The translations under genes were made by a program, and so were the position numbers. A stretch of DNA of 64,000 nucleotides, taken from positions 274,049 through 338,048 of the forward strand of contig NZ_JAHNZT010000001.1 in the NCBI RefSeq assembly GCF_019039035.1. Reading direction: 5' to 3'. Shown here in pieces: positions 21,715 through 60,335 of this stretch. The notes beneath the pieces were generated by a model. That model did no database searches. It saw nothing but the letters and a program-made list of their open reading frames with translations, and was not told the origin of the DNA. The stretch's first letter is position 1, and the number at the start of each line of letters is the position of its first letter. The stretch comes from Citreicoccus inhibens (lineage in GTDB: Bacteria > Myxococcota > Myxococcia > Myxococcales > Myxococcaceae).

Positions 21715-21943
21715 GGTGACGCCCCCGCGCCCGCGACGTCGCGCCGAGGCGAGGGCTCCTCGCGCTATAGCCCCCCGGCGGAAGGACGCCGTGCGCACGC
21801 GCGCGTCCCGCTCACTGCGCGACATCCCGCGCAAGCCAGGTGTTCGCTAGTTCGCCCGAAGAGGCCCACCGCGCGGGAATTGACCGGCTCCCCGGCGCGG
21901 CGGAGCATGCCCGCCCCACCGCCGCGCGGCGGACCGGACGGCC
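21715..21943. promoter_or_regulatory. Divergent spacer between the MMPL and glutaminase genes
   Basis: This 229-bp gene-free region must hold both divergent promoters. Two perfect palindromes are present: CGCGACGTCGCG at 21732-21743 and CCGCCGCGCGGCGG at 21919-21932. The second could hide the glutaminase translation start. In such GC-rich DNA, both could be compositional accidents. Confidence 0.3.
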
Positions 21944-22855
21944 ATGGACTACCAGGCGATACTCGACGAGGTGATGGAGGCGACCCGGCCCGTGCTCGGG
22001 CAGGGGCGCGTGGCGCGCTACATCCCCGCGCTGGCCGCGGTGGACCCCAACCACTTCGGCATGGCGCTGGCCACCGTGGACGGCGCGCTGTACGGCGTGG
22101 GCGACTGGCGCGTGCCCTTCTCCATCCAGAGCATCTCCAAGGTCTTCACGCTGGCGCTGACGCTGGCCCAGGACGGGGATGCGCTGTGGCGCCGCGTGGG
22201 CAAGGAGCCCTCGGGCAACCCGTTCAACTCCCTGGTCCAGCTCGAGTACGAGCAGGGCATCCCTCGCAACCCCTTCATCAACGCGGGGGCGCTCGTCATC
22301 ACCGACCGGCTGCTCGGCCTCACGGGTGACGCGAGGGGCACGCTGCGCGACTTCCTGCGCGCGGAGAGCGGCAACCCGGCCGTGGACTTCGACCCGGTCG
22401 TCGCCGCGTCGGAGGCGGAGCACGGCCATCGCAACGCGGCGCTGGCCCACTTCATGGCCAGCTACGGCAACGTCGAGCGCCCCGTCCCCGAGGTGCTAGA
22501 GCACTACTTCTGGCAATGCTCGCTGCGCATGAGCTGCGCGGACCTCGCGCGCGCCTGTGGCTTCCTCGCGCGCCACGGCCAACGCGCGGGCGGGGAGCGG
22601 CTGCTCACCCGCAGTCAGGCCAAGCAGGTCAACGCGGTGATGCTCACCTGCGGCACCTACGACGCGGCCGGCGAGTTCGCCTACCGCGTGGGCCTGCCCG
22701 GCAAGAGCGGCGTCGGGGGCGGCATCATCGCCATCATCCCCAACCGCTGCGGCCTGTGCGTCTGGAGTCCCGCGCTCGACGCACGCGGCAACTCCGTGGC
22801 CGGCGTCGAGGCGTTGGATCGCTTCACCACCCGCACCGGCCTCTCCATCTTCTGA
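21944..22855 (+). CDS. glsA: Glutaminase (serine-dependent, beta-lactamase-like fold)
   Basis: This is a 303-residue glutaminase that hydrolyses L-glutamine to glutamate and ammonia in the cytoplasm. The S-x-x-K catalytic motif is S63-I-S-K66 in PFSIQSISKVF. The family words GNPFNSLVQLEYEQGIPRNPFINAGALV (about 86-113) and the C-terminal GLPGKSGVGGGIIAIIP are intact, and length is normal for the family. A weak ribosome site (GGACGGCC) and an adjacent 14-bp palindrome precede the ATG. A methyltransferase gene follows after eight bases, so the two are probably co-transcribed. Confidence 0.95.
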   Translation: MDYQAILDEVMEATRPVLGQGRVARYIPALAAVDPNHFGMALATVDGALYGVGDWRVPFSIQSISKVFTLALTLAQDGDALWRRVGKEPSGNPFNSLVQLEYEQGIPRNPFINAGALVITDRLLGLTGDARGTLRDFLRAESGNPAVDFDPVVAASEAEHGHRNAALAHFMASYGNVERPVPEVLEHYFWQCSLRMSCADLARACGFLARHGQRAGGERLLTRSQAKQVNAVMLTCGTYDAAGEFAYRVGLPGKSGVGGGIIAIIPNRCGLCVWSPALDARGNSVAGVEALDRFTTRTGLSIF

Positions 22856-41996: not shown

Positions 41997-42107
41997 CGCG
42001 CAGTGCGTTGGCTCGCCGCGGCGCGAGGCGCTCCTCACTCGACGCCGCACCTCGCCGCGCGCGAAGGAGATTGACGGCGCGGGAGGGGAGCGCTCGGATG
42101 CGCGCCC

Positions 42108-49614: not shown

Positions 49615-50460
49615 ATGGAAGACCCTCACGCAAGACTGGTAGCGGCCCTGTTGGATGCGAGGCAGCGCCACTGCTTTCCCCCGGACGTGCGCAAAGCGGC
49701 GCCGGAGTTCGTCGGACAGGTGCTGGGCTTGTTGTTCCCGCACTTCGCGGACCGGCTGGAGTGCAGCGCCGCGGCGGTGCGGCGCGACGTCACCACGGTA
49801 GAGGCGAGCCTGCACCGGCTGCTGGAGCTGCTGGAGCCGCACTACCCGCGCACCGAGCCGTCGCTCCCGGCGCGCTTCATGGCGGGACTGCCGGACACGT
49901 ATGCGTGGCTCCAGCAGGACGCGCAGGCCATCTTCGACGCGGACCCCGCCGCGCGCAGCGTGGACGAAGTCATCCTCACGTATCCGGGCTTCCTCGCCAT
50001 CGCCATCTACCGCGTGGCGCACGCGCTCCACGGCTTGGGCTTCCCGCTGCTGCCGCGGCTGCTCACCGAGCACGCGCACCAGCGCACCGGCGTGGACATC
50101 CATCCGGGCGCCGTCATCGGGCGGCGCTTCGTCATCGACCACGGCACGGGCGTGGTCATCGGCGAGACGACGCTGATTGGAAGCAACGTGAAGCTCTACC
50201 AGGGCGTCACCCTGGGCGCGCTGATGGTGGAGAAGGCCCTGGCGGACAAGAAGCGCCACCCGACCATCGAGGACGACGTGGTGGTGTACGCCAACGCCAC
50301 CATCCTCGGAGGCGAGACGGTGGTCGGCCAGGGCAGCATCATCGCCGGCAACGCGTGGCTCACGCAGAGCGTGCCGCGCAACTCCATCGTCACCCGACGC
50401 AGCGAGGTCCGCCCGCGCAATGGCGACGGCGGCCTCGACGAGCTGGACTACCACATTTGA
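49615..50460 (+). CDS. cysE: Serine O-acetyltransferase
   Basis: This is a 281-residue enzyme acetylating L-serine with acetyl-CoA, the first step of cysteine synthesis. The helical N-terminal domain (1-165) ends [23 protein letters not shown], characteristic of CysE/EpsC. The left-handed beta helix follows ([45 protein letters not shown]), with the catalytic DH pair in VIDHGTG. Cysteine synthase starts 40 bp downstream, so the two form a cysteine operon. Confidence 0.93.
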
Positions 50461-50500
50461 AGCGCAGCACAGCCCTCACCCGCAGCCCCGCCACGGACCC

Positions 50501-51421
<921 letters not shown>

Positions 51422-51431
51422 CGCTCGGGGC

Positions 51432-52571
51432 TCAGGTGCGCGAGAACTCGCGCACCCAGGCCACCAGCCGGTCCACCTCCTCCGGCGTGTTGTAGAAGTG
51501 TGGCGACAGGCGGATGCGCCCTCGCCGCACGGAATGCGCCACCTTGCGCTCGGACAACCAGGCGCTGAGCGCGCGCGCGTCCGCGCCGGGAGGCAGGAAC
51601 GTGAGGATGCCCGCGCGATGTTCGGGCGCGGGCCCCACGTCACAGCCCAGGTCGCGAAGGCCGGCGTCCAGCCGCGCGACGAGCTGGCCAATGCGCTCGG
51701 AGATGCGGTCCATCCCCACCTCCAGCAACATCTCCAGCGCCGCGCCCAGCGCGTAGATGCCGGTGTAGGCCGCGCTGCCCTCCTCGAACTTCAGCGCGTC
51801 CGGGCGCAGCTCGAAGTGGCTGCGATTGAAGTTCCACGCATCCGTGGTGCTGCGCCAGCCCACCAGCACCGGGCGCACCCGCGGCAACACGTCACGCGCC
51901 ACGTACAGGATGCCGATGCCCGCGATGCCCAGCATCCACTTGTGACTGTCCGCGCTGAGGAAGTGCGCGCGCGACTTCTTCACGTCCACGGGCAAGCAGC
52001 CCACGCTCTGGATGCCGTCCACGCACAGCAACACGCCCGCGCGCTCGCACACCGCGCCGAGCGCATCGAGGTCCGTGCGGCAGCCCGTAGCGAATTGCAC
52101 GGACGACACCGCCACCAGGCGCGTGCGGGAGGTGAGCGCGGCGGCCACCGCCTCCGGCGTGACGCCGCCCGTGGGCGTCTCGATGTCCCGCACGACCACG
52201 CCGCGGTCGCGCAGGTGGAGCCAGGGATAGACATTGGACGGATACTCGAGGCTGGTGGCCACCACGACCTCGTCACCGGCGCGCCAGTCGAGTCCCTCGG
52301 CCACTAGACCCAGGCCGTGGCTGGTGTTGCGCACGAAGGCCACTTCATCCGGCGCGGCGCCGATGAGCCGCGCGGCCAGGCCTCGCACCTTCTCGCAGTG
52401 GGCCTCCCAGCCGCGCTCGTGCTGGATGCCGTGGTGCACCAGGTCCTCCATCCAGCCACGCACGGCGCTCGCGGCGCGCAGGCTCGTGGGCGCCACGCCC
52501 GCGTGGTTCAGATAGAGCTGCTCCTGCAGGACAGGGAACTCGGCGCGGTAGGACTCGAGGGGGCGGGTCAT
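51432..52571 (-). CDS. Class V aminotransferase (cysteine desulfurase/isopenicillin epimerase-like)
   Basis: This is a 379-residue PLP enzyme. It shows LYLNHAGVAPTS near the start, the FVRNTSHGLGLVAEGL phosphate-binding region (about 78-93), VSSVQFATGCRTDL, the aspartate in VCVDGIQSVG-like sequence, and the PLP lysine in LSADSHKWMLGIAGIGILYV (about 215). The closest family resemblance is to isopenicillin N epimerase/CsdB-like proteins. No conserved active Cys loop is evident, so desulfurase activity is doubtful. Confidence 0.87.
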   Translation of the reverse strand: MTRPLESYRAEFPVLQEQLYLNHAGVAPTSLRAASAVRGWMEDLVHHGIQHERGWEAHCEKVRGLAARLIGAAPDEVAFVRNTSHGLGLVAEGLDWRAGDEVVVATSLEYPSNVYPWLHLRDRGVVVRDIETPTGGVTPEAVAAALTSRTRLVAVSSVQFATGCRTDLDALGAVCERAGVLLCVDGIQSVGCLPVDVKKSRAHFLSADSHKWMLGIAGIGILYVARDVLPRVRPVLVGWRSTTDAWNFNRSHFELRPDALKFEEGSAAYTGIYALGAALEMLLEVGMDRISERIGQLVARLDAGLRDLGCDVGPAPEHRAGILTFLPPGADARALSAWLSERKVAHSVRRGRIRLSPHFYNTPEEVDRLVAWVREFSRT

Positions 52572-52662
52572 TCGAGGCACTGTAGCCGCGAGGGCGCACG
52601 AGGGGGTCTCCACGAAGGGCCCGAAGTGCGCTATCCGTCCTGCGCCCCGAGATGAGGAGTCC

Positions 52663-54087
52663 ATGATGCGCCGCGACGTGCTGGCTGCCGTGATGTCGAC
52701 CATCGTGCTGCTCGCGGGCTGCGCGGGCACCGTCCATGCGCCCTACCCGCCCATCCGCGCGGACAGCTCCCCCCAAGCGCTCACGCGCGGCGCCGCCATC
52801 TTCCACGCGAGCTGCGAGGCCTGTCACCGCGGCGGTGACCGCGACACCGCCTCGGGCGCGCCGCTGCGCGAGCTGCCCTCGTACATGGGCCGCTTCCACT
52901 CCGCGAACCTGACGTCGGATCCAGTGGGCGGCATCGGCGCGGCGAAGGATGAAGAGCTGGCGCGCGCCATCCGCTACGCGGTGAGTCGCGAAGGGCGGCT
53001 CATGGTGATGCCCAGCTACGGCATGGGCGACGCGGACCTCGCGGCGGTGTTGGGCTTCCTGCGCTCGGAGGACCCGCTGTTCCGAGCGGATCCCAAGCCC
53101 GCGCCCGCGTGCGAGTTCAGCTTCGTGGGAGGCATCGGCTTCCGCTTCGTCACCGGCAACACGCCCGCGGAGCGCCCCGCGTCTGGCATCCCCGTGCCGC
53201 CCAAGGGGCCTACGCTGGAGTACGGCCGCTACATGGCCCACGAGGTCTACGACTGCGCCTCGTGCCACACGGACGGCTTCAGCCCGGACAAGACGAAGGG
53301 CGACGAGGCCTTCTCGGGTGGCATGGCCTTCGTGGACCCCGAGGGACGCAAGGTCTACTCCAGCAACCTCACCTTCGATGCCACGGGCCTGGCGAACTGG
53401 ACGCTCGCGGACTTCACCCGCGCGCTGCGCGATGGACTCGCGCCGGACGGCTCGGCGCTGCGCTCGCCCATGCCGCGCTTCCGCGCCCTCGACGAAGCCG
53501 AGGCCCGCGCGCTCTATGACTACCTGCGCACCTTGGCTCCACGGAAGAACGCGGTGGACGGCGCGCGTCCCCGCCTCACCGCCACCAGTGCCCGTGCGGC
53601 CTGGGTGAATCCCGACACGGGCGCGGGCGAGCAGACCGCGGAGACCCAGCTCGACACCGCCGCCGAGGCCGCTGTCGCCGAGGCGCTTCCGCCCGCGGCC
53701 ACGCCTCCGCCCGCCGCCACGCCCACGGCGACGCCCGCGGTTGGCTCAACACCGACGCCCTCGAGCACGTTGGCCAGCGGGCAGGTGAGCCCCGTGGTGC
53801 GCAAGCCGAGGCCCGTCCTGACGCCCGCGAAGGTGGACGCGGCGAAGCTCTTCGTTCAGTACGGGTGTTCGAGCTGCCATGCCCCCGGCGCGCGCTACCA
53901 CGACCGGCTCGCCCATGCGGCGCACCGCCCGGACCTGGAGCTGGTGAAGTGGGTGCGCAACCCAGAGAAGTACCTGCCGGGCACGCCCATGCCCACCTAC
54001 GCCGAGCTGATTGACGAGCGCACCGCGCTGGCCCTGGTGCGGTGGGTGAAGGCGGGTGGGCCCTCGACCCTCGCGACGCCGCGCTGA
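52663..54087 (+). CDS. Triheme c-type cytochrome lipoprotein
   Basis: This is a 474-residue exported protein with lipobox LLAGC (Cys 20). It has three haem c sites: CEACH (51-55), CASCH (198-202) and CSSCH (402-406). Each sits in a separate mono-haem domain with a downstream Met candidate (for example MVMPSYGMGD and MPTYAE). Domains 2 and 3 are joined by a disordered Ala/Thr/Pro linker (about 330-385). It is probably a membrane-tethered electron carrier in the periplasm. GAGGAGTCC precedes the ATG. No oxidase or dehydrogenase gene is adjacent, so the partner is unknown. Confidence 0.88.
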   Translation: MMRRDVLAAVMSTIVLLAGCAGTVHAPYPPIRADSSPQALTRGAAIFHASCEACHRGGDRDTASGAPLRELPSYMGRFHSANLTSDPVGGIGAAKDEELARAIRYAVSREGRLMVMPSYGMGDADLAAVLGFLRSEDPLFRADPKPAPACEFSFVGGIGFRFVTGNTPAERPASGIPVPPKGPTLEYGRYMAHEVYDCASCHTDGFSPDKTKGDEAFSGGMAFVDPEGRKVYSSNLTFDATGLANWTLADFTRALRDGLAPDGSALRSPMPRFRALDEAEARALYDYLRTLAPRKNAVDGARPRLTATSARAAWVNPDTGAGEQTAETQLDTAAEAAVAEALPPAATPPPAATPTATPAVGSTPTPSSTLASGQVSPVVRKPRPVLTPAKVDAAKLFVQYGCSSCHAPGARYHDRLAHAAHRPDLELVKWVRNPEKYLPGTPMPTYAELIDERTALALVRWVKAGGPSTLATPR

Positions 54088-54362
54088 CAAAAGATTCACA
54101 CGAAATTGCCAGGAAAAGCCCCTCGCCACGTATCCCGGGAGAGGTGGTGCACGAGGGGGGAGTCCTCCAAATCACCTCGTAGTTCAGTTCGCCTTCCCCT
54201 CCATGGTGGCGGGGGGGCACCCGCGTCTTCCGGAATCAGGCCGGCCCCTTATTCCGGGGGCGCGGTTCCAGCACTGGCATCCGTGTCTTCGCCGCGACCA
54301 GAGACCCTGGCCACCGGGAGGGCACGGACCAGTGCTGGATTTTTTTGTGTAGCGTGGCGCCC
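54088..54362. promoter_or_regulatory. Structured spacer before the 5-oxoprolinase operon
   Basis: This is 275 bp without a gene. It holds hairpin 1, CCGGAAT (54230-54236) with ATTCCGG (54251-54257) and an inner AGG/CCT, and the long terminator-like hairpin annotated separately. The left part (54088-54200) is mildly AT-richer than average and could contain the promoter. Confidence 0.5.
54267..54346 (+). terminator. Long hairpin with T7 tail 16 bases before the pxpAB start
   Basis: TCCAGCACTGG (54267-54277) pairs perfectly with CCAGTGCTGGA (54329-54339), extended inward by TCCGTG (54280-54285) with CACGGA (54323-54328). Seven T residues follow (54340-54346). It is the best intrinsic-terminator shape in the window. 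Its place just before the ATG at 54363 suggests attenuation of the operon as well as, or instead of, ending the cytochrome transcript. Confidence 0.7.
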
Positions 54363-55652
54363 ATGACGGGGTGCCTCCTCAACATCGACCTGGGCGAGCT
54401 GCCCGACGAGGACCCTCGGCTCTACGCCCTGGCGCACGTGGCCAACATCGCGTGCGGCGGCCACGCGGGCGATGACGCCTCCATGCGCCACGCGCTGGCG
54501 CAATGTGAACGGCACGGCACTCACGTGGGTGCGCACCCTTCGTTCGAGGACCGAGAAGGCTTCGGCCGACGCGCGCTCGACGTCGCCCCGGAAGTCCTCG
54601 CGGAGCAGGTGGCGGCGCAGTGCCGCCGACTCGCGAGGCTCGCCTCCGCGCGAGGCCAGCGCGTCGCGTTCGCCAAACCCCATGGCGCGCTCTACCACGC
54701 CGCGCAAGCCACGCCGGCGCTCGCTCGCGCGGTCGTCGCGGGCCTCGTTCGCGCGCTCGGCCCGAGCCTCACCCTCATCGGACCTCCACAGGGAGCGCTC
54801 TGGGACGCGGCGCAAGAGGCGGACCTCGCCTATCTGCGCGAGGGCTTCGCGGACCGAGGGACACGGCCAGACGGCTCACTCATCCCCAGGGGTCAGCCCG
54901 GGGCCGTGCTGACGGAGATCGCTCGCGTGCGGGAGAACGCCGCGCGGCTGGCGGGAAGTGGTGGGCTCGAAACGCTGTGCGTTCACGGAGACACACCGGG
55001 CGCGGTCGCGCTGGCCACCGAGGTGCGCGCCGGGCTGGATGCGCTCGAGATTCACGAGGCACCGCTGGGCGAGGGCGCGCTGCGGCTCACGCTCCCCGCG
55101 GGACTGGATGGGGGACACGCCCAGGAAGCACTGCGCGCCCTGCCTCACGTGGTGGATTGCGTCCTCACCGAGGACCACGTCAGCGTGTACTTCGCTCCGG
55201 ATGCGCGACCGGAGGAGCCTCGGCTCGTCCTCGCGCGCCTGCGGTTGCTGCCGGTGGTGGAGCGTCCGCATCCGCGCGTCACCTTGCGCGTGCGCTACGA
55301 CGGCCCCGACCTGGCGAAGGTGGCGGAGCATGGTGGGCTGACGGTGGACGAGGTCGCGCGACGGCACGCGGCGCGCGAGTACACCGTCCGATGCGTGGGC
55401 TTCCTGCCGGGCTTTGCGTACCTGGGCGAAGTGGATCCACGCATCGCTTGCCCTCGCCTCGCCTCGCCTCGCGCGCGTGTGCCGGCGCTCTCGGTGGGCA
55501 TCGCGGGAGCGCGCACGGGCGTCTATCCCTTCACGTCCCCGGGGGGATGGAATCTGGTGGGGACCGCGCTGGACTTCACGGCCTTCGACTCGGAGCGGGG
55601 CGCGGTGCTGCGGCCCGGAGACCGGGTGCGCTTCGAGCAGGTGGATGAATGA
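54363..55652 (+). CDS. pxpAB: PxpA-PxpB fusion of 5-oxoprolinase (LamB/YcsF + KipI)
   Basis: This is a 429-residue fusion. Residues 1-210 are PxpA (LamB/YcsF): NIDLGELPDEDPRLY, ANIACGGHAGDDASMRHAL, GAHPSFEDREGFGRR, and AFAKPHGALYHAA. From about 225 it is PxpB (KipI): YDGPDLAKVAEHGGLTVDEVARRHA, CVGFLPGFAYLGEVDP, ARVPALSVGIAGARTGVYPFTSPGGWNLVG. With PxpC these subunits cleave 5-oxoproline to glutamate using ATP. They are normally separate genes. PxpC follows with an ATGA overlap. No Shine-Dalgarno is visible between the T-run hairpin and the ATG. Confidence 0.92.
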   Translation: MTGCLLNIDLGELPDEDPRLYALAHVANIACGGHAGDDASMRHALAQCERHGTHVGAHPSFEDREGFGRRALDVAPEVLAEQVAAQCRRLARLASARGQRVAFAKPHGALYHAAQATPALARAVVAGLVRALGPSLTLIGPPQGALWDAAQEADLAYLREGFADRGTRPDGSLIPRGQPGAVLTEIARVRENAARLAGSGGLETLCVHGDTPGAVALATEVRAGLDALEIHEAPLGEGALRLTLPAGLDGGHAQEALRALPHVVDCVLTEDHVSVYFAPDARPEEPRLVLARLRLLPVVERPHPRVTLRVRYDGPDLAKVAEHGGLTVDEVARRHAAREYTVRCVGFLPGFAYLGEVDPRIACPRLASPRARVPALSVGIAGARTGVYPFTSPGGWNLVGTALDFTAFDSERGAVLRPGDRVRFEQVDE

Positions 55653-56530
55653 ACGGCTGGCTGGACATCACCGGAATGGGCGCGCCGGTCACGGTGCAGG
55701 ATGGCGGGCGCCCCGGGCAGATGCACCACGGCGTCCCCGCTGGCGGCCCCCTGGTCCCGGAGTTGCTCGTGGCGGCCAACCGCGCGGTGGGCAATCCCCG
55801 AGGCGCGGCGGCGCTCGAATCCTACGGGCGCCTGGCGCTGCGAGTGCGCGGACGCACGGCGCGCATCTCCGTGGACGGCCGCTCCTTCACCGTGGCGGAT
55901 GGTGAGACCTTCACGGTCCCCGCCCCCGAGTCCCTCGCCGTGCGCTACATCGCGGTGGACGGGGGCATCGCGGTGCCCGAGGTGTTGGGAGGACGGGGCA
56001 CGCTGCTCGTGGCGAACCTGGGTGGACACCAGGGCCGCGCGCTGCGCCCGGGAGACTCTCTCCCGCTCGGCGCATCCCTGGGCCCGCCCGACGCGCAGTC
56101 CCCGGAAGTGAGGCTGGACGCACAAGCTCCAGTGCGAGTGACCCCGGGGCCAGACCTGGAGCGCTTTGACTCCACGGCGCTGCCGTTGTTGGTGGGCTCG
56201 GACTTCACCGTGTCCACCGTGAGTGACCGGGTGGGCATGCGGCTTCGAGGCGCGGCCATTCCCCACGGGGACGAAGGCACTGGCACCTCGAGGCCCATGG
56301 CACGAGGAGCCATCCAAGTGACGTTGTCCGGAGAGCCCATCGTGCTCGGGCCGGATCACCCCACGACGGGAGGCTATCCGCTCATCGCCGTCGTCATCCG
56401 CGCGGACTGGGGACGACTCGCCGCGCGCCGCCCCGGAGCCCACGTCCGCTTCGCCTCCGTCTCGGTCGAGGAGGCAAGAGAAGCCTGGAGCCACCGGGCC
56501 GCCGAGCTGGGCCTCTCCATGGAGCGCTGA
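55649..56530 (+). CDS. pxpC: 5-oxoprolinase subunit PxpC (KipA family)
   Basis: This is a 293-residue protein of the biotin-dependent-carboxylase-like KipA family: ITGMGAPVTVQDGGRPGQMHHGVPAGGPL at the start, VDGGIAVPEVLGGRGTLLVANLGGHQGRALRPGD in the middle, and SDRVGMRLRGAAI then GYPLIAVVIRADWGRLAARRPG near the end. It completes the three-part ATP-dependent 5-oxoprolinase with the fused PxpA-PxpB. Its start overlaps the upstream stop (ATGA). A hairpin overlaps its own stop codon. Confidence 0.92.
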   Translation: MNGWLDITGMGAPVTVQDGGRPGQMHHGVPAGGPLVPELLVAANRAVGNPRGAAALESYGRLALRVRGRTARISVDGRSFTVADGETFTVPAPESLAVRYIAVDGGIAVPEVLGGRGTLLVANLGGHQGRALRPGDSLPLGASLGPPDAQSPEVRLDAQAPVRVTPGPDLERFDSTALPLLVGSDFTVSTVSDRVGMRLRGAAIPHGDEGTGTSRPMARGAIQVTLSGEPIVLGPDHPTTGGYPLIAVVIRADWGRLAARRPGAHVRFASVSVEEAREAWSHRAAELGLSMER

Positions 56531-56549
56531 TCGCCACCACGGCGGTCAG
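56527..56549 (+). terminator. Hairpin at the end of pxpC
   Basis: CTGATCGCC (56527-56535) pairs with GGCGGTCAG (56541-56549) at eight of nine positions around a 5-nt loop, overlapping the pxpC stop. There is no T tract; it is a probable operon end. Confidence 0.35.
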
Positions 56550-56590
56550 TGAATCCACGCGCCGCAGTCCATGCGCGGCCGCGAGCGGGG

Positions 56591-56687
56591 CTCAGCGCAG
56601 AAGCAGGCGCCAACGGACCTCGCGCCTCGGCGCGGATGCAAGCCAGAGCACCACTCAGCGCTGAAGCAGGCGTGAGAGGAACTCGCG
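56591..56687. repeat. Imperfect 34-bp direct repeat duplicating the ABC ATPase gene 3' end
   Basis: Bases 56591-56624 and 56654-56687 match at 28 of 34 positions (offset 63). The right copy is the last codons and stop of the minus-strand ABC ATPase gene. The left copy lies in the spacer and still reads as a comparable tail ending in TGA, so it looks like a decaying partial duplication. Confidence 0.6.
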
Positions 56688-57389
56688 GGTGCGCGGTTGC
56701 TTCGGCTCGCGCAGCACCTGCTGCGGTGTGCCTTCCTCCACCACGCGACCTCCGTCGAGGAAGAGCACGCGGTGAGCCACATCCGCGGCGAAGCCCATCT
56801 CGTGCGTCACCACGCACATGGTCATGCCTTCGCGCGCCAGCTCGCGCATGACCTCCAACACCTCGCCCACCAGCTCAGGGTCGAGCGCGCTCGTGGGTTC
56901 GTCGAAGAGCATCAGCTCCGGCTTCATGGCCAGCGCACGCGCAATGGCCACGCGCTGCTGCTGTCCACCTGACAGCTGCGCTGGGAAGGCGTCCGCGCGA
57001 TCGCCCAGGTGCACCATCGACAACATGCGCCGGCCCAGCGCCTCGGCCTCCGCGTCGGGCATGCCCAGCACCTTGCGCGGCGCCAGCGTCACGTTCTGCA
57101 GCGCGCTCAGGTGCGGGAACAGATGGAAGCGCTGGAACACCATGCCGACTCGGCGATGCAGCGCCTGGAGCGCCACGGCGTCATCGCGCACGGGAACTCC
57201 GCCCACCATCACCTCGCCTTCGGACGGCAGCTCCAGGCCACACAGGCACCGCAGCAGCGTGGACTTTCCACAGCCGGACGGGCCGACGAACACCACCACC
57301 TCGCCCGGTTGAACGGTGAGGTCCACGCCACGCAGGACGTCCACCGCCCCGAAGCGCTTGTGCAGGTTGCGGACTTCGACGAGCGCCAT
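56655..57389 (-). CDS. Amino-acid ABC transporter ATP-binding protein (GlnQ/HisP class)
   Basis: This is a 244-residue ATPase. Walker [10 protein letters not shown] (about 34-42), Q-loop in [18 protein letters not shown], signature [15 protein letters not shown], Walker [14 protein letters not shown] and the H-loop in VVTHEMGFA are all intact. The polar-amino-acid class is indicated by the HLFPH and EMGFA words. It follows the fused binding-protein/permease gene by eight bases and forms the complete importer with it. Confidence 0.94.
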
Positions 57390-57397
57390 GTCGTTCC

Positions 57398-58864
57398 TCA
57401 GCGTTGATTTTGAAGACGCCGCTCGAGCGCCGCGGCCAAGCGCGTCAGCGGCAACGTGGCCAAGAGGTAGAACACCGCCACCAAGGGCCAGATGGCCAAC
57501 GGCGCCGCGAGCTGGCTGGCCAGCTCTTGCCCCGAGCGCGTCAGCTCCGCCATGCCAATGATGGACACGAGCGACGAGTCCTTCAGCAACGCGATGCCCT
57601 CATTCGTCAGCGGCGGCAGCACGTTGCGCACCGCCTGGGGGAGAATGACGAACCGCATGGCCTGCGCGGAGCTCATGCCCAGGGCGCGCGCGGCCTCGGC
57701 CTGCCCGGGATCCACCGACGCGATGCCCGCGCGGAAGATCTCCGCCACATAGGCCGCGCTGTTGAGCGTCAGCGCCAGCACCGCCGCGAGGAACGGCGCC
57801 AGGTCCACCCCGAGCAACTGCGGCAGCGCGTAGTAGATGAAGATGATCTGCACGAGCAGCGGCGTCCCACGCAGGACTTCCACATAGGCACCACACAGCC
57901 ACGAGACCACCTTCGGCTTCGCGCGCCGCCCCAGCGCCACCCCCAACCCCAAGGGCAGACCGGCCAGGAGCGCCAACACGGTGAGCCCCAGCGTCAACGC
58001 CATGCCGCGCAGGAGCCGCCGCGCCACGCTGCCCCAGGGCACGCCCGACAGCGCCGGCCTGGCCTGCTGCGCCGCGGCCCCGAAGTACTTCTCCTCCAGC
58101 GCGGCGAACCGACCGCTGTCGCGCAGCCGCTTCAGCGCCCCGTTCACCGCCGTGCGCAGCGCCACGTCATCCGGGCGCATCACGATGCCGTAGTGCTCCT
58201 CGGTGAGCAGGTCCCCTGTGGTGCGCAGCCCTTGGAAGCCGTGGTGGATGAAGTAGCGCAGCGTCGGCGAGTCCCCCACGACGCCCGCGAGGTTGCCGTT
58301 GAGCAGGTCCTGCAACGCCAGGTCGATGCTCGGATACTGGCGCACCTGCACGTCCGGGAGCTTCTGGAGCACGAGCGCGGCGGTGGTGTTGATTTGAATG
58401 CCCGCGACCTTGCCGCGCAGGCTCTCGATGCCCGTGATGCTCAGGTCATCCTGGCGCGCGGCCACCCGCTGACCGGCCGTGTAGTAGGGATCCGAGAAGG
58501 CCAGACGCTCCTGCCGCTCTGGCGTGATGGTGACAGCGGACATCACCAGGTCGAACTTGCCGGCGAGCAGCGCGGGGAAGACGCCATCGAACGAAGTGTT
58601 CGTCCACTCGACCCTGGCGCCCAGCTCCTCGCCCACCAGGTTGCCCAGCTCCACGTCGAAGCCGACCAGCTCACCGTCGTGCACTGACTCGAAGGGCGGG
58701 TAGGTGGCATCCGTGCCGATGCGCAGCGTGCGGCCACGGAAGTCCCCCGTTGCGGAGGGGGCCTCCTTGCGCCCGCAACCCGGAGCGAGCACGAGCCCCC
58801 AAAGGAGTCCGAGGAAGGCCAGCCCGGCGACGGAGGGTCGGAAACGGAGGAAGCGCGGGTGCAT
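57398..58864 (-). CDS. Fused amino-acid binding protein and ABC permease
   Basis: This is a 488-residue fusion. Residues 1-30 form a lipoprotein-type signal (VLAPGC). About 45-270 is a family 3 solute-binding domain ([50 protein letters not shown]). About 280-485 is a HisM/GlnP-type permease with the coupling EAA loop [30 protein letters not shown]. This SBP-permease fusion resembles GlnPQ of lactic acid bacteria and works with the ATPase encoded downstream. Adjacent 5-oxoprolinase genes make glutamate/glutamine-type substrates plausible, but that is inference. Confidence 0.92.
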
Positions 58865-58979
58865 GGAGACCCCGTGTTACATCGGTGGCTTCGTCCCCCG
58901 GAGCAAGCGCTTTCGTACCCGTCCGTCCTCGGACGCACCGCTAGCAACTCTGGTCGGCCGCCCACCGAGAATCCCGGAC

Positions 58980-60335
58980 ATGTCTCCCCCGCGCATTGGC
59001 TCCCGCGTCGCCCCGCAGCCTCGTCCCATTTCCGAGACCCCGCCCCCACGTCCCGACGTGAAGGCGCGCGCCACGCCCCTCCGCGATGAGCGTGGCGTGT
59101 CCGGGTTCGACGCGAAGCCCCGCTCGGCCGGCCCCGTGGCCCTCGCGGCCTCGGCGCCCACGTCGCGAGGGACCGGCGTCACGCCCGGGACCTACCCGAA
59201 CAGCCGGGATGTGGAGGCCATCTCCGCGATGAAGGATCCGGTGGCCCGCAACGTGGCCATCACCCAGGGCTACTCAGACCTGTCCAGCGCGGTGGGGCAG
59301 ATGCTCGGCACGGAGAACGCGAGCTGGGCCACCTTCGGCACGTGGGCGTCCAAGCAAGCGGGGGTGAGCATCCGCCAGGAGGACATGCCCAAGCTGCTGG
59401 TGGATGCGCTCCACGGCGCGGGCGATGTCACGGGGCCGCTCGCCAAGGTGGATGACATCCTCCGCAAGGTGGGGCTGCCCGCGCTGCCGGGCCTGTCGGA
59501 CATCGCGCAGGCCGGCGCGAAGGCGCTCGACAGCGTCAGCCAGGCGATCGCCGATGGCAACCAGTTGGTGTTCCACGAGGTGGGCACCGAGTTCGCCCGC
59601 TTCATCGAGACCTTCCAGGGCGACACGGCCTTCGACGCGGCCAAGACGCAGAAGTACCTGGAGAGCTTCCCCGCGGACAAGCCGCTGCTGAAGCAGGCCT
59701 TCGGGCACTACGCCGAGGCCATGTTCGAGAAGGACCCGAACAAGAAGGCCGAGCTGATGTTGCTGGCCAATGATCAAATCGGCCTGCACGAGCAGACGCG
59801 GCTTCAGCCCTACGTGGAGAAGGCGCTGAACACGCCGGTGAAGGAGACGTTCCGGGACCTGCTCAAGCAGTCCATCCAGGGGGCGGCCAACGCCCTGCCC
59901 TTCCCCGCCAACCTCGCCGCCAAGGCCGCCATCAAGAGTGGCGTGGTGGACGCGGCCTTGTCGCCCGTGGTGGACGGGCTGGCGAGCACGTTCCGCCGCT
60001 TCGCCACGGACCACATGATGAAGCTGGCGGTGCCCGGCGGCGCGCTGAAGCTCGGCAATGACCTGCCGCCGCCCGCGGGCATGGAGAAGGACCTGTTCCC
60101 GGCGAACCTGCGCACGCTCGAGAACCCGGAGCTGCGGGAGCTGATGGGCAAGCTCGACCGCACGCCGGACAGCCTGCATGGCACCGCCGCCAAGGACTGG
60201 AGCCGCCTGGACCAGCGGATGAACTACATCATCGACCTGTTCCGCTCGCGCCAGTCGGATCCGCACCTGTTCGACCCGCCGTTCGGCAAGCGCGGCCAGT
60301 ACCCGGTGCGTGCCGAGGCGCCCCGCGTCGCCTGA
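58980..60335 (+). CDS. Conserved-type hypothetical protein with NxSWxTFxxWAS motif
   Basis: This is a 451-residue soluble protein. The first 75 residues are Pro/Arg-rich and disordered. The helical rest contains ARNVAITQGYSDLSSAVGQMLG and ENASWATFGTWASKQAGVSIRQED (about 90-135). From memory, similar N-W-x-T-F-x-x-W-A-S words occur in uncharacterised proteins of actinobacteria and other groups. Further on it has VFHEVGTEFARFIETF and PVKETFRDLLKQSIQGAANALPFP. There is no signal peptide, no membrane span and no catalytic motif I can name. It is flanked by the ABC importer (divergent) and a secreted charged protein. Confidence 0.7.
   Translation: MSPPRIGSRVAPQPRPISETPPPRPDVKARATPLRDERGVSGFDAKPRSAGPVALAASAPTSRGTGVTPGTYPNSRDVEAISAMKDPVARNVAITQGYSDLSSAVGQMLGTENASWATFGTWASKQAGVSIRQEDMPKLLVDALHGAGDVTGPLAKVDDILRKVGLPALPGLSDIAQAGAKALDSVSQAIADGNQLVFHEVGTEFARFIETFQGDTAFDAAKTQKYLESFPADKPLLKQAFGHYAEAMFEKDPNKKAELMLLANDQIGLHEQTRLQPYVEKALNTPVKETFRDLLKQSIQGAANALPFPANLAAKAAIKSGVVDAALSPVVDGLASTFRRFATDHMMKLAVPGGALKLGNDLPPPAGMEKDLFPANLRTLENPELRELMGKLDRTPDSLHGTAAKDWSRLDQRMNYIIDLFRSRQSDPHLFDPPFGKRGQYPVRAEAPRVA

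Follow-up and report, generated by a model that had tools for sequence, protein, structure and literature searches.

A hairpin and T-run before pxpAB most likely terminate a hitherto undescribed gene for a small structured RNA, shared by Myxococcus and a related genus

When a strong hairpin and a run of T residues stand just before a start codon, whose transcript do they act on? The question arises in the window (the whole 64-kb stretch of Citreicoccus inhibens DNA analysed here), where a gap of 275 nt separates a cytochrome c-type gene from pxpAB. A first-pass annotation proposed an attenuator of the 5-oxoprolinase operon, took the cytochrome and pxp transcripts to be the sole candidates, and regarded a near-leaderless pxp promoter as the awkward alternative. 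Comparison with relatives disfavours the attenuator, favours the near-leaderless promoter, and brings in a third unit, an RNA encoded in the gap, which fits better than either transcript. Most likely, the hairpin and T-run form the 3' end of a gene for this small structured RNA, which is hitherto undescribed and occurs in Myxococcus and a related genus. We place at roughly 60% the reading that the + strand of the gap encodes a small non-coding RNA with its own terminator, and that pxpABC is transcribed separately as a (near-)leaderless mRNA. The features of the locus are as follows.

52663–54087, + strand: cytochrome c-type gene (Pfam Cytochrome_CBB3 / Cytochrom_C)
54102–54134, + strand: promoter-like block of the putative RNA gene, GAAATTGCC (54102–54110), N18, CGTATC (54129–54134)
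54141–54178, + strand: RNA stem-loop 1 (GAGGTGGT/ATCACCTC), from the fold; occupies the place of the Myxococcus-form P1
54191–54218, + strand: RNA stem-loop 2, from the fold
54221–54265, + strand: conserved stem-loop P3 with loop core CCGGCCCC, from the covariance model R1 alignment to P3 of relatives
54267–54346, + strand: intrinsic terminator, 11+6 bp stem and T7; predicted 3' end of the RNA gene
54350–54355, + strand: TAGCGT, -10-like element of the putative pxpAB promoter (TAGCGT-N7-ATG)
54363–55652, + strand: pxpAB, fused PxpA-PxpB homologue (Pfam LamB_YcsF and CT_C_D)
55649–56530, + strand: pxpC homologue (Pfam CT_A_B)

The NCBIfam PxpA, PxpB and PxpC models match the window proteins below their cut-offs, so the oxoprolinase activity of the pxp genes is presumptive. 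PxpAB-like proteins occur in 57 of the 96 family genomes, and a near full-length match to the PxpA-PxpB fusion in 52 of 96; PxpA and PxpB lie in separate places in two g7 genomes and in one genome each of groups g8, g3 and g17. The pxpC start overlaps the end of the fused pxpAB by 4 bases.

The hairpin itself was confirmed from the sequence. It spans 54267–54339, where TCCAGCACTGG, a 2-nt bulge (ca) and TCCGTG pair with CACGGACCAGTGCTGGA in 11 + 6 = 17 pairs, and it is followed by T7 at 54340–54346, with 16 bases between T7 and the pxpAB ATG at 54363. The fold of 54266–54346 has an energy of -49.4 kcal/mol (z -8.0), and none of 200 shuffles was equally stable. T7 is the only run of at least six T on either strand of the 64-kb window (71% GC), and uninterrupted Watson–Crick stems of at least 8 bp abutting such a run appeared in 0 of 60 dinucleotide shuffles. 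A weak terminator-like pattern by itself would be meaningless here, because a looser generic scan of 50000–60000 returned one site against a shuffle average of 3.1. As in intrinsic (Rho-independent) terminators, a stable GC-rich stem runs straight into a T-run directly on its 3' side, whereas the stem is unusually long for this class (11+6 bp plus apical pairs) and the hairpin abuts a second promoter-like element; termination is predicted. The other genome of the window's genus carries the hairpin with 3 substitutions in 81 nt, and there it refolds at -50.7 kcal/mol. A dispersed repeat or mobile hairpin was rejected, as a search of the gap against its own genome returned the gap itself, its opposite strand and three short places (E 0.3–0.6). 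The second perfect hairpin described upstream was likewise confirmed, as a 7-bp stem of CCGGAAT (54230–54236) and ATTCCGG (54251–54257) with a folded extent of 54222–54264.

Relatives were compared in two main groups, the Myxococcus/Pyxidicoccus-like genomes (g19, 27 genomes) and the window's genus (g1, 2 genomes, the second being G014). A block, GAAAT(G/T)(A/G)CC-N18-CGTATC, recurs across the g19 gaps, apart from a few single-base variants. Its 18-nt spacer is gapless in 24 of 24 aligned g19 relatives, with mean conservation of 92% in columns 1–9 and 99% in columns 28–33 against 56% in spacer columns 17–27; the alignment omits G056 and G067, in which the element lies outside the last 300 nt and R1 later located the RNA farther upstream. 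A three-way junction, recovered by RNAalifold, begins 5–6 nt 3' of the block in g19 and consists of P1 (TGGAAGT/ACTTCC), a variable P2, and P3, whose CCGGCCCC loop core is invariant in 24/24 aligned relatives.

The junction is supported by compensatory changes over a shared structure. Among the 24 g19 sequences, which are related, so that the cell counts are not independent events, 98.6% of 696 cells were paired, and changes on both sides occurred in 6 pairs and 33 cells, a level reached by 0 of 500 shuffles. Sliding the pair partners lowered pairing to 32–54%, while one of the five covariation measures (further pair types) was unexceptional, with 112 of 500 shuffles as high. Adding the two g1 and the two remaining g19 genomes raised the both-side-changed pairs to 16 and the cells to 55, in an alignment that was fitted to the structure and leans toward it; P3 with g1 included shows both-side changes in 6 of 17 pairs. 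The excess of G-U over A-C cells in the g19 alignment (81 versus 8) points to an RNA read on the + strand. A coding explanation was rejected on reading the alignment, in which length steps between block and P3 are not in threes and the stem changes compensate.

The same element is present in the window. R1, a covariance model trained on g19 only, without g1 or the window, matched 54102–54275 with 29 bits and an E of 5.7e-6 across the 64 kb; the runner-up in the window had an E of 5.6. In the R1 alignment the second hairpin of the first-pass annotation corresponds to P3 of the relatives, with the same loop core, while the consensus form of P1 is not kept in the window or g1. The window RNA folds into four hairpins with the terminator last; without the terminator (128 nt) the fold is moderately more stable than expected (z -2.2, 5 of 200 shuffles as stable). 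Because that second hairpin is the most conserved stem of the RNA, the hairpin and T7 behind it are best read as the terminator of the structured RNA, and they may still halt read-through from the cytochrome gene.

The distribution of the RNA is narrow. R1 found one strong place each in 26 of 27 g19 genomes (E 2.2e-29 or better) and in both g1 genomes (E 8–9e-4 per genome), with weaker matches (E 0.01–0.07) in G082, G044 and a second place in G056; no R1 match to the RNA was obtained in the 16 genomes of group g5. At the order level, under strict filters, the same 28 of 145 genomes were returned. A second model, R2, with g1 included, gave nothing below E 0.16 in 32 further family genomes, comprising 31 outside g1 and g19 plus G074 and covering 9 of the 16 g5 genomes. 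R1 also matched 8 of 19 named or MAG loci, and these eight are not independent of the g19 genomes; seven bear the name Myxococcus or Pyxidicoccus in their titles and one bears Comamonas. The record titled Comamonas sp. KCTC 72670, which bears the Myxococcus RNA and pxpAB, is probably mislabelled. A known RNA family, riboswitches included, was rejected on the basis of Rfam 15, which yielded two microRNA-family matches in the window at 21 and 15.8 bits (gathering scores 79 and 50); four g19 loci gave no match up to E 1.

If the hairpin were an attenuator of pxp, it would lie within the pxp transcript, and a -10-like element, TAGCGT, stands instead on the 3' side of the T-run. Apart from G051, where PxpA and PxpB match weakly and in separate places, 56 genomes were compared. 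A TANNNT element lies 5–10 nt 5' of the pxpAB start codon in 47 of the 56, these 47 being related rather than independent events, and TANNNT has a background of 0.19% of 69,440 positions. By group, it occurs in 2/2 g1, 26/26 g19, 16/16 g5, 3/6 g3 and 0/6 other genomes, and it is kept across differing upstream genes, with or without the RNA. No SD-like motif precedes pxpAB in the g1, g19 and g5 genomes. Among the DNA matches listed for a 400-base query, those in g5 and g19 begin at query positions 287–300 (window 54349–54362), right after the T-run, except for a few short scraps elsewhere, and the 90 nt 5' of the pxpAB start contain no T4 run in any of the 16 g5 genomes. On this evidence pxpAB appears to be transcribed from a near-leaderless promoter of its own. 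Leaderless mRNAs with a TANNNT -10 element beside the start codon are a pattern of actinobacteria, which pxpAB resembles in the TANNNT, placed 6–9 nt ahead of the ATG in the 47 genomes, and in the lack of an SD-like motif; in contrast to those mRNAs, the 5' end of the pxpAB mRNA is predicted from sequence alone. A hairpin just 5' of a start codon is thus not necessarily an attenuator if the gene has a promoter at its start codon.

Other expected parts of an attenuator were also sought. None of the 23 g19 gaps between the cytochrome gene and pxpAB contains a run of at least four T, so the expression platform is not conserved with the putative aptamer. Pairing of the upstream RNA with the two terminator arms was matched by 92.6% and 72.6% of 500 shuffles, so no mutually exclusive anti-terminator emerged from the window sequence. 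None of four small open frames (at least 6 codons) contains a Glu/Gln run, as a Glu/Gln leader peptide would. The comparison of myxobacterial leaders that had been suggested turned up a conserved structured RNA ahead of the terminator, but no anti-terminator better than chance. The locus resembles a riboswitch or attenuator in having a structured RNA and then a terminator upstream of a metabolic operon, and differs in that there is no Rfam match, no anti-terminator was found and pxp has its own promoter-like element.

The neighbours help to establish whose RNA this is. The cytochrome–pxpAB gene order is the same in 23 of 27 g19 genomes, while G054, G070 and G079 keep the RNA although a search for the cytochrome gene gave nothing there at E 1e-40 or better. 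In G054 and G079, both of which were inspected, the upstream neighbour is divergent and by eye resembles the protein encoded at window 51432–52580, which matches Pfam Aminotran_5. Because the next upstream gene is divergent, the RNA in these two genomes should need its own promoter; and because it is kept in cytochrome-less genomes behind a divergent gene, it is evidently not a cytochrome 3' UTR. The promoter role of the 54102–54134 block is suggested by its conservation and spacing. The block pattern had 41 matches against 0 for a reversed-pattern control, a weak control since base order differs. An exact copy of GAAAT..CC-N18-CGTATC also occurs in G063 (L180 1501–1533), upstream of an unrelated gene that by eye appears lipoprotein-like, so the block may mark a promoter class. 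In G056 the RNA and pxpAB are separated by a SUKH (SMI1/KNR4) family gene (L145, about 862–1410, - strand). In G074 pxpAB and the RNA are both absent, and the contig stops inside the cytochrome gene, so this apparent co-loss is uninformative.

Under the preferred reading, transcription of the RNA would start just past GAAAT..CC-N18-CGTATC, at about 54140; from the promoter-like block, the 5' end is expected near 54139–54142. The product would be a strongly folded RNA of ~205 nt, most conserved in the CCGGCCCC-loop hairpin at 54221–54265, and transcription would stop at the hairpin and T7 (54346). The -10 element of the pxpABC promoter (TAGCGT, 54350–54355) would then lie just behind the T-run, and the pxpABC mRNA would be (near-)leaderless, with its 5' end at or beside the ATG at 54363. 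Several observations count against this reading. While the promoter-like block is present, the terminator is found in g1 and not in g19, where the RNA could read into pxpAB since no T-run terminator follows it. The P1 consensus form is missing from the window, and 9 of 56 genomes lack the -10-like element at the start codon. The RNA is, moreover, always on the pxp strand upstream of pxpAB, which also suits a role in cis.

That last observation also speaks for an alternative that we consider unlikely, though the strongest of the rivals, in which the RNA would serve pxpABC as a 5' leader of the riboswitch or protein-responsive attenuator kind, and the g1 hairpin and T7 would form a conditional terminator. 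All 28 genomes with the RNA carry it 5' of pxpAB and in the same orientation, it stays with pxpAB in the three genomes lacking the cytochrome gene, and the terminator stands 16 nt 5' of the ATG in both g1 genomes. Against a leader, the start-codon element is conserved with and without the RNA, no SD-like motif is available to a translational switch in g1, g19 or g5, the g19 gaps lack the T-run, and pairing of the RNA to the terminator arms is no better than in shuffles. The RNA is also far from pxpAB in G056 and G067, whose RNA–pxpAB gaps are similarly long, with the SUKH-type gene intervening in G056, and the junction linker is variable.

Rather less probable is a plain terminator of the cytochrome transcript, with the conserved structure upstream of it incidental or part of the cytochrome 3' UTR. 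Hairpins of this type usually end the preceding unit, and the gap lies downstream of the cytochrome gene on the same strand; yet the RNA persists in three genomes that lack a cytochrome homologue, no T4 run is present in any of the 23 g19 gaps that follow a cytochrome gene, and a promoter-like block at fixed spacing precedes the RNA. We regard as very improbable a DNA-level element whose palindromes are protein-binding sites. P3 is strongly palindromic, and the model gives weak matches on the opposite strand (15–24 bits, 6 loci), but the 81 G-U against 8 A-C cells are a strand-specific RNA signature of wobble pairs, and conservation is far higher in the loop core (99%) than in the interior of P2 (62%).

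How such an RNA might act is suggested by where its conservation lies. Because the conserved unpaired bases are in the P3 loop while the junction linker (131–132) is variable, the alignment points to a loop-acting small RNA or a protein-binding hairpin rather than a junction aptamer; a trans-acting, loop-mediated role would fit this pattern. A 14-base loop pattern searched in 9 genomes matched the RNA locus in each, together with 10 scattered places in 4 of them, and a reversed-pattern control gave 12 matches against these 10 non-RNA places; these counts do not support a conserved long antisense target of the loop. It is a speculative and rather improbable suggestion that the RNA couples an oxoproline/glutamate or redox signal to expression, either as a pxp leader beside a leaderless internal promoter or as a trans-acting sRNA that would regulate mRNAs through its invariant CCGGCCCC loop. 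According to an excerpt of PMC5568312, no Hfq homologue is reported in the myxobacterial group.

The closest known parallel is Pxr of M. xanthus, which excerpts of PMC5684412 and PMC5568312 place between nla19/Mxan_1078 and Mxan_1079/1080 with a predicted sigma-54 promoter. As described in those excerpts, Pxr is likewise an intergenic sRNA gene found in only one group of myxobacteria, with multiple stem-loops and a promoter of its own, whereas the RNA here precedes pxpAB and has a different promoter-like block. Identity with Pxr was rejected, since the neighbours here are a cytochrome c gene and pxpAB and not nla19 (pxrR) as in the same two sources. No description of the RNA was recognised among the literature matches listed, which include PMC5684412, PMC5568312, PMC9548883 and PMC11928866, and Pxr is the only Myxococcus small RNA named in the titles and abstract openings among them. 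The RNA may be an unnamed entry in sRNA tables such as that of PMC9548883, since an excerpt of that paper counts sRNAs among its differentially expressed transcripts. A second structured RNA of Myxococcus, with a conserved unpaired loop and found in 26 of 27 g19 genomes, would be directly testable in a laboratory species.

In favour of the RNA gene, the 275-nt gap also differs little in the second g1 genome, G014, where the alignment shows 6 substitutions and a single gap. In a regional control 6 of its 257 sites differ, whereas third codon positions differ at 13.7% (2385/17398) in a crude set of 47 open frames. This divergence is the second lowest of 15 gaps of at least 80 nt, two of which were poorly aligned. 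Two other gaps of the window stand out in this comparison and may each hold an RNA or a missed gene: 41997–42107, with very low divergence (2/111), and 21835–22515, with low divergence (25/681).
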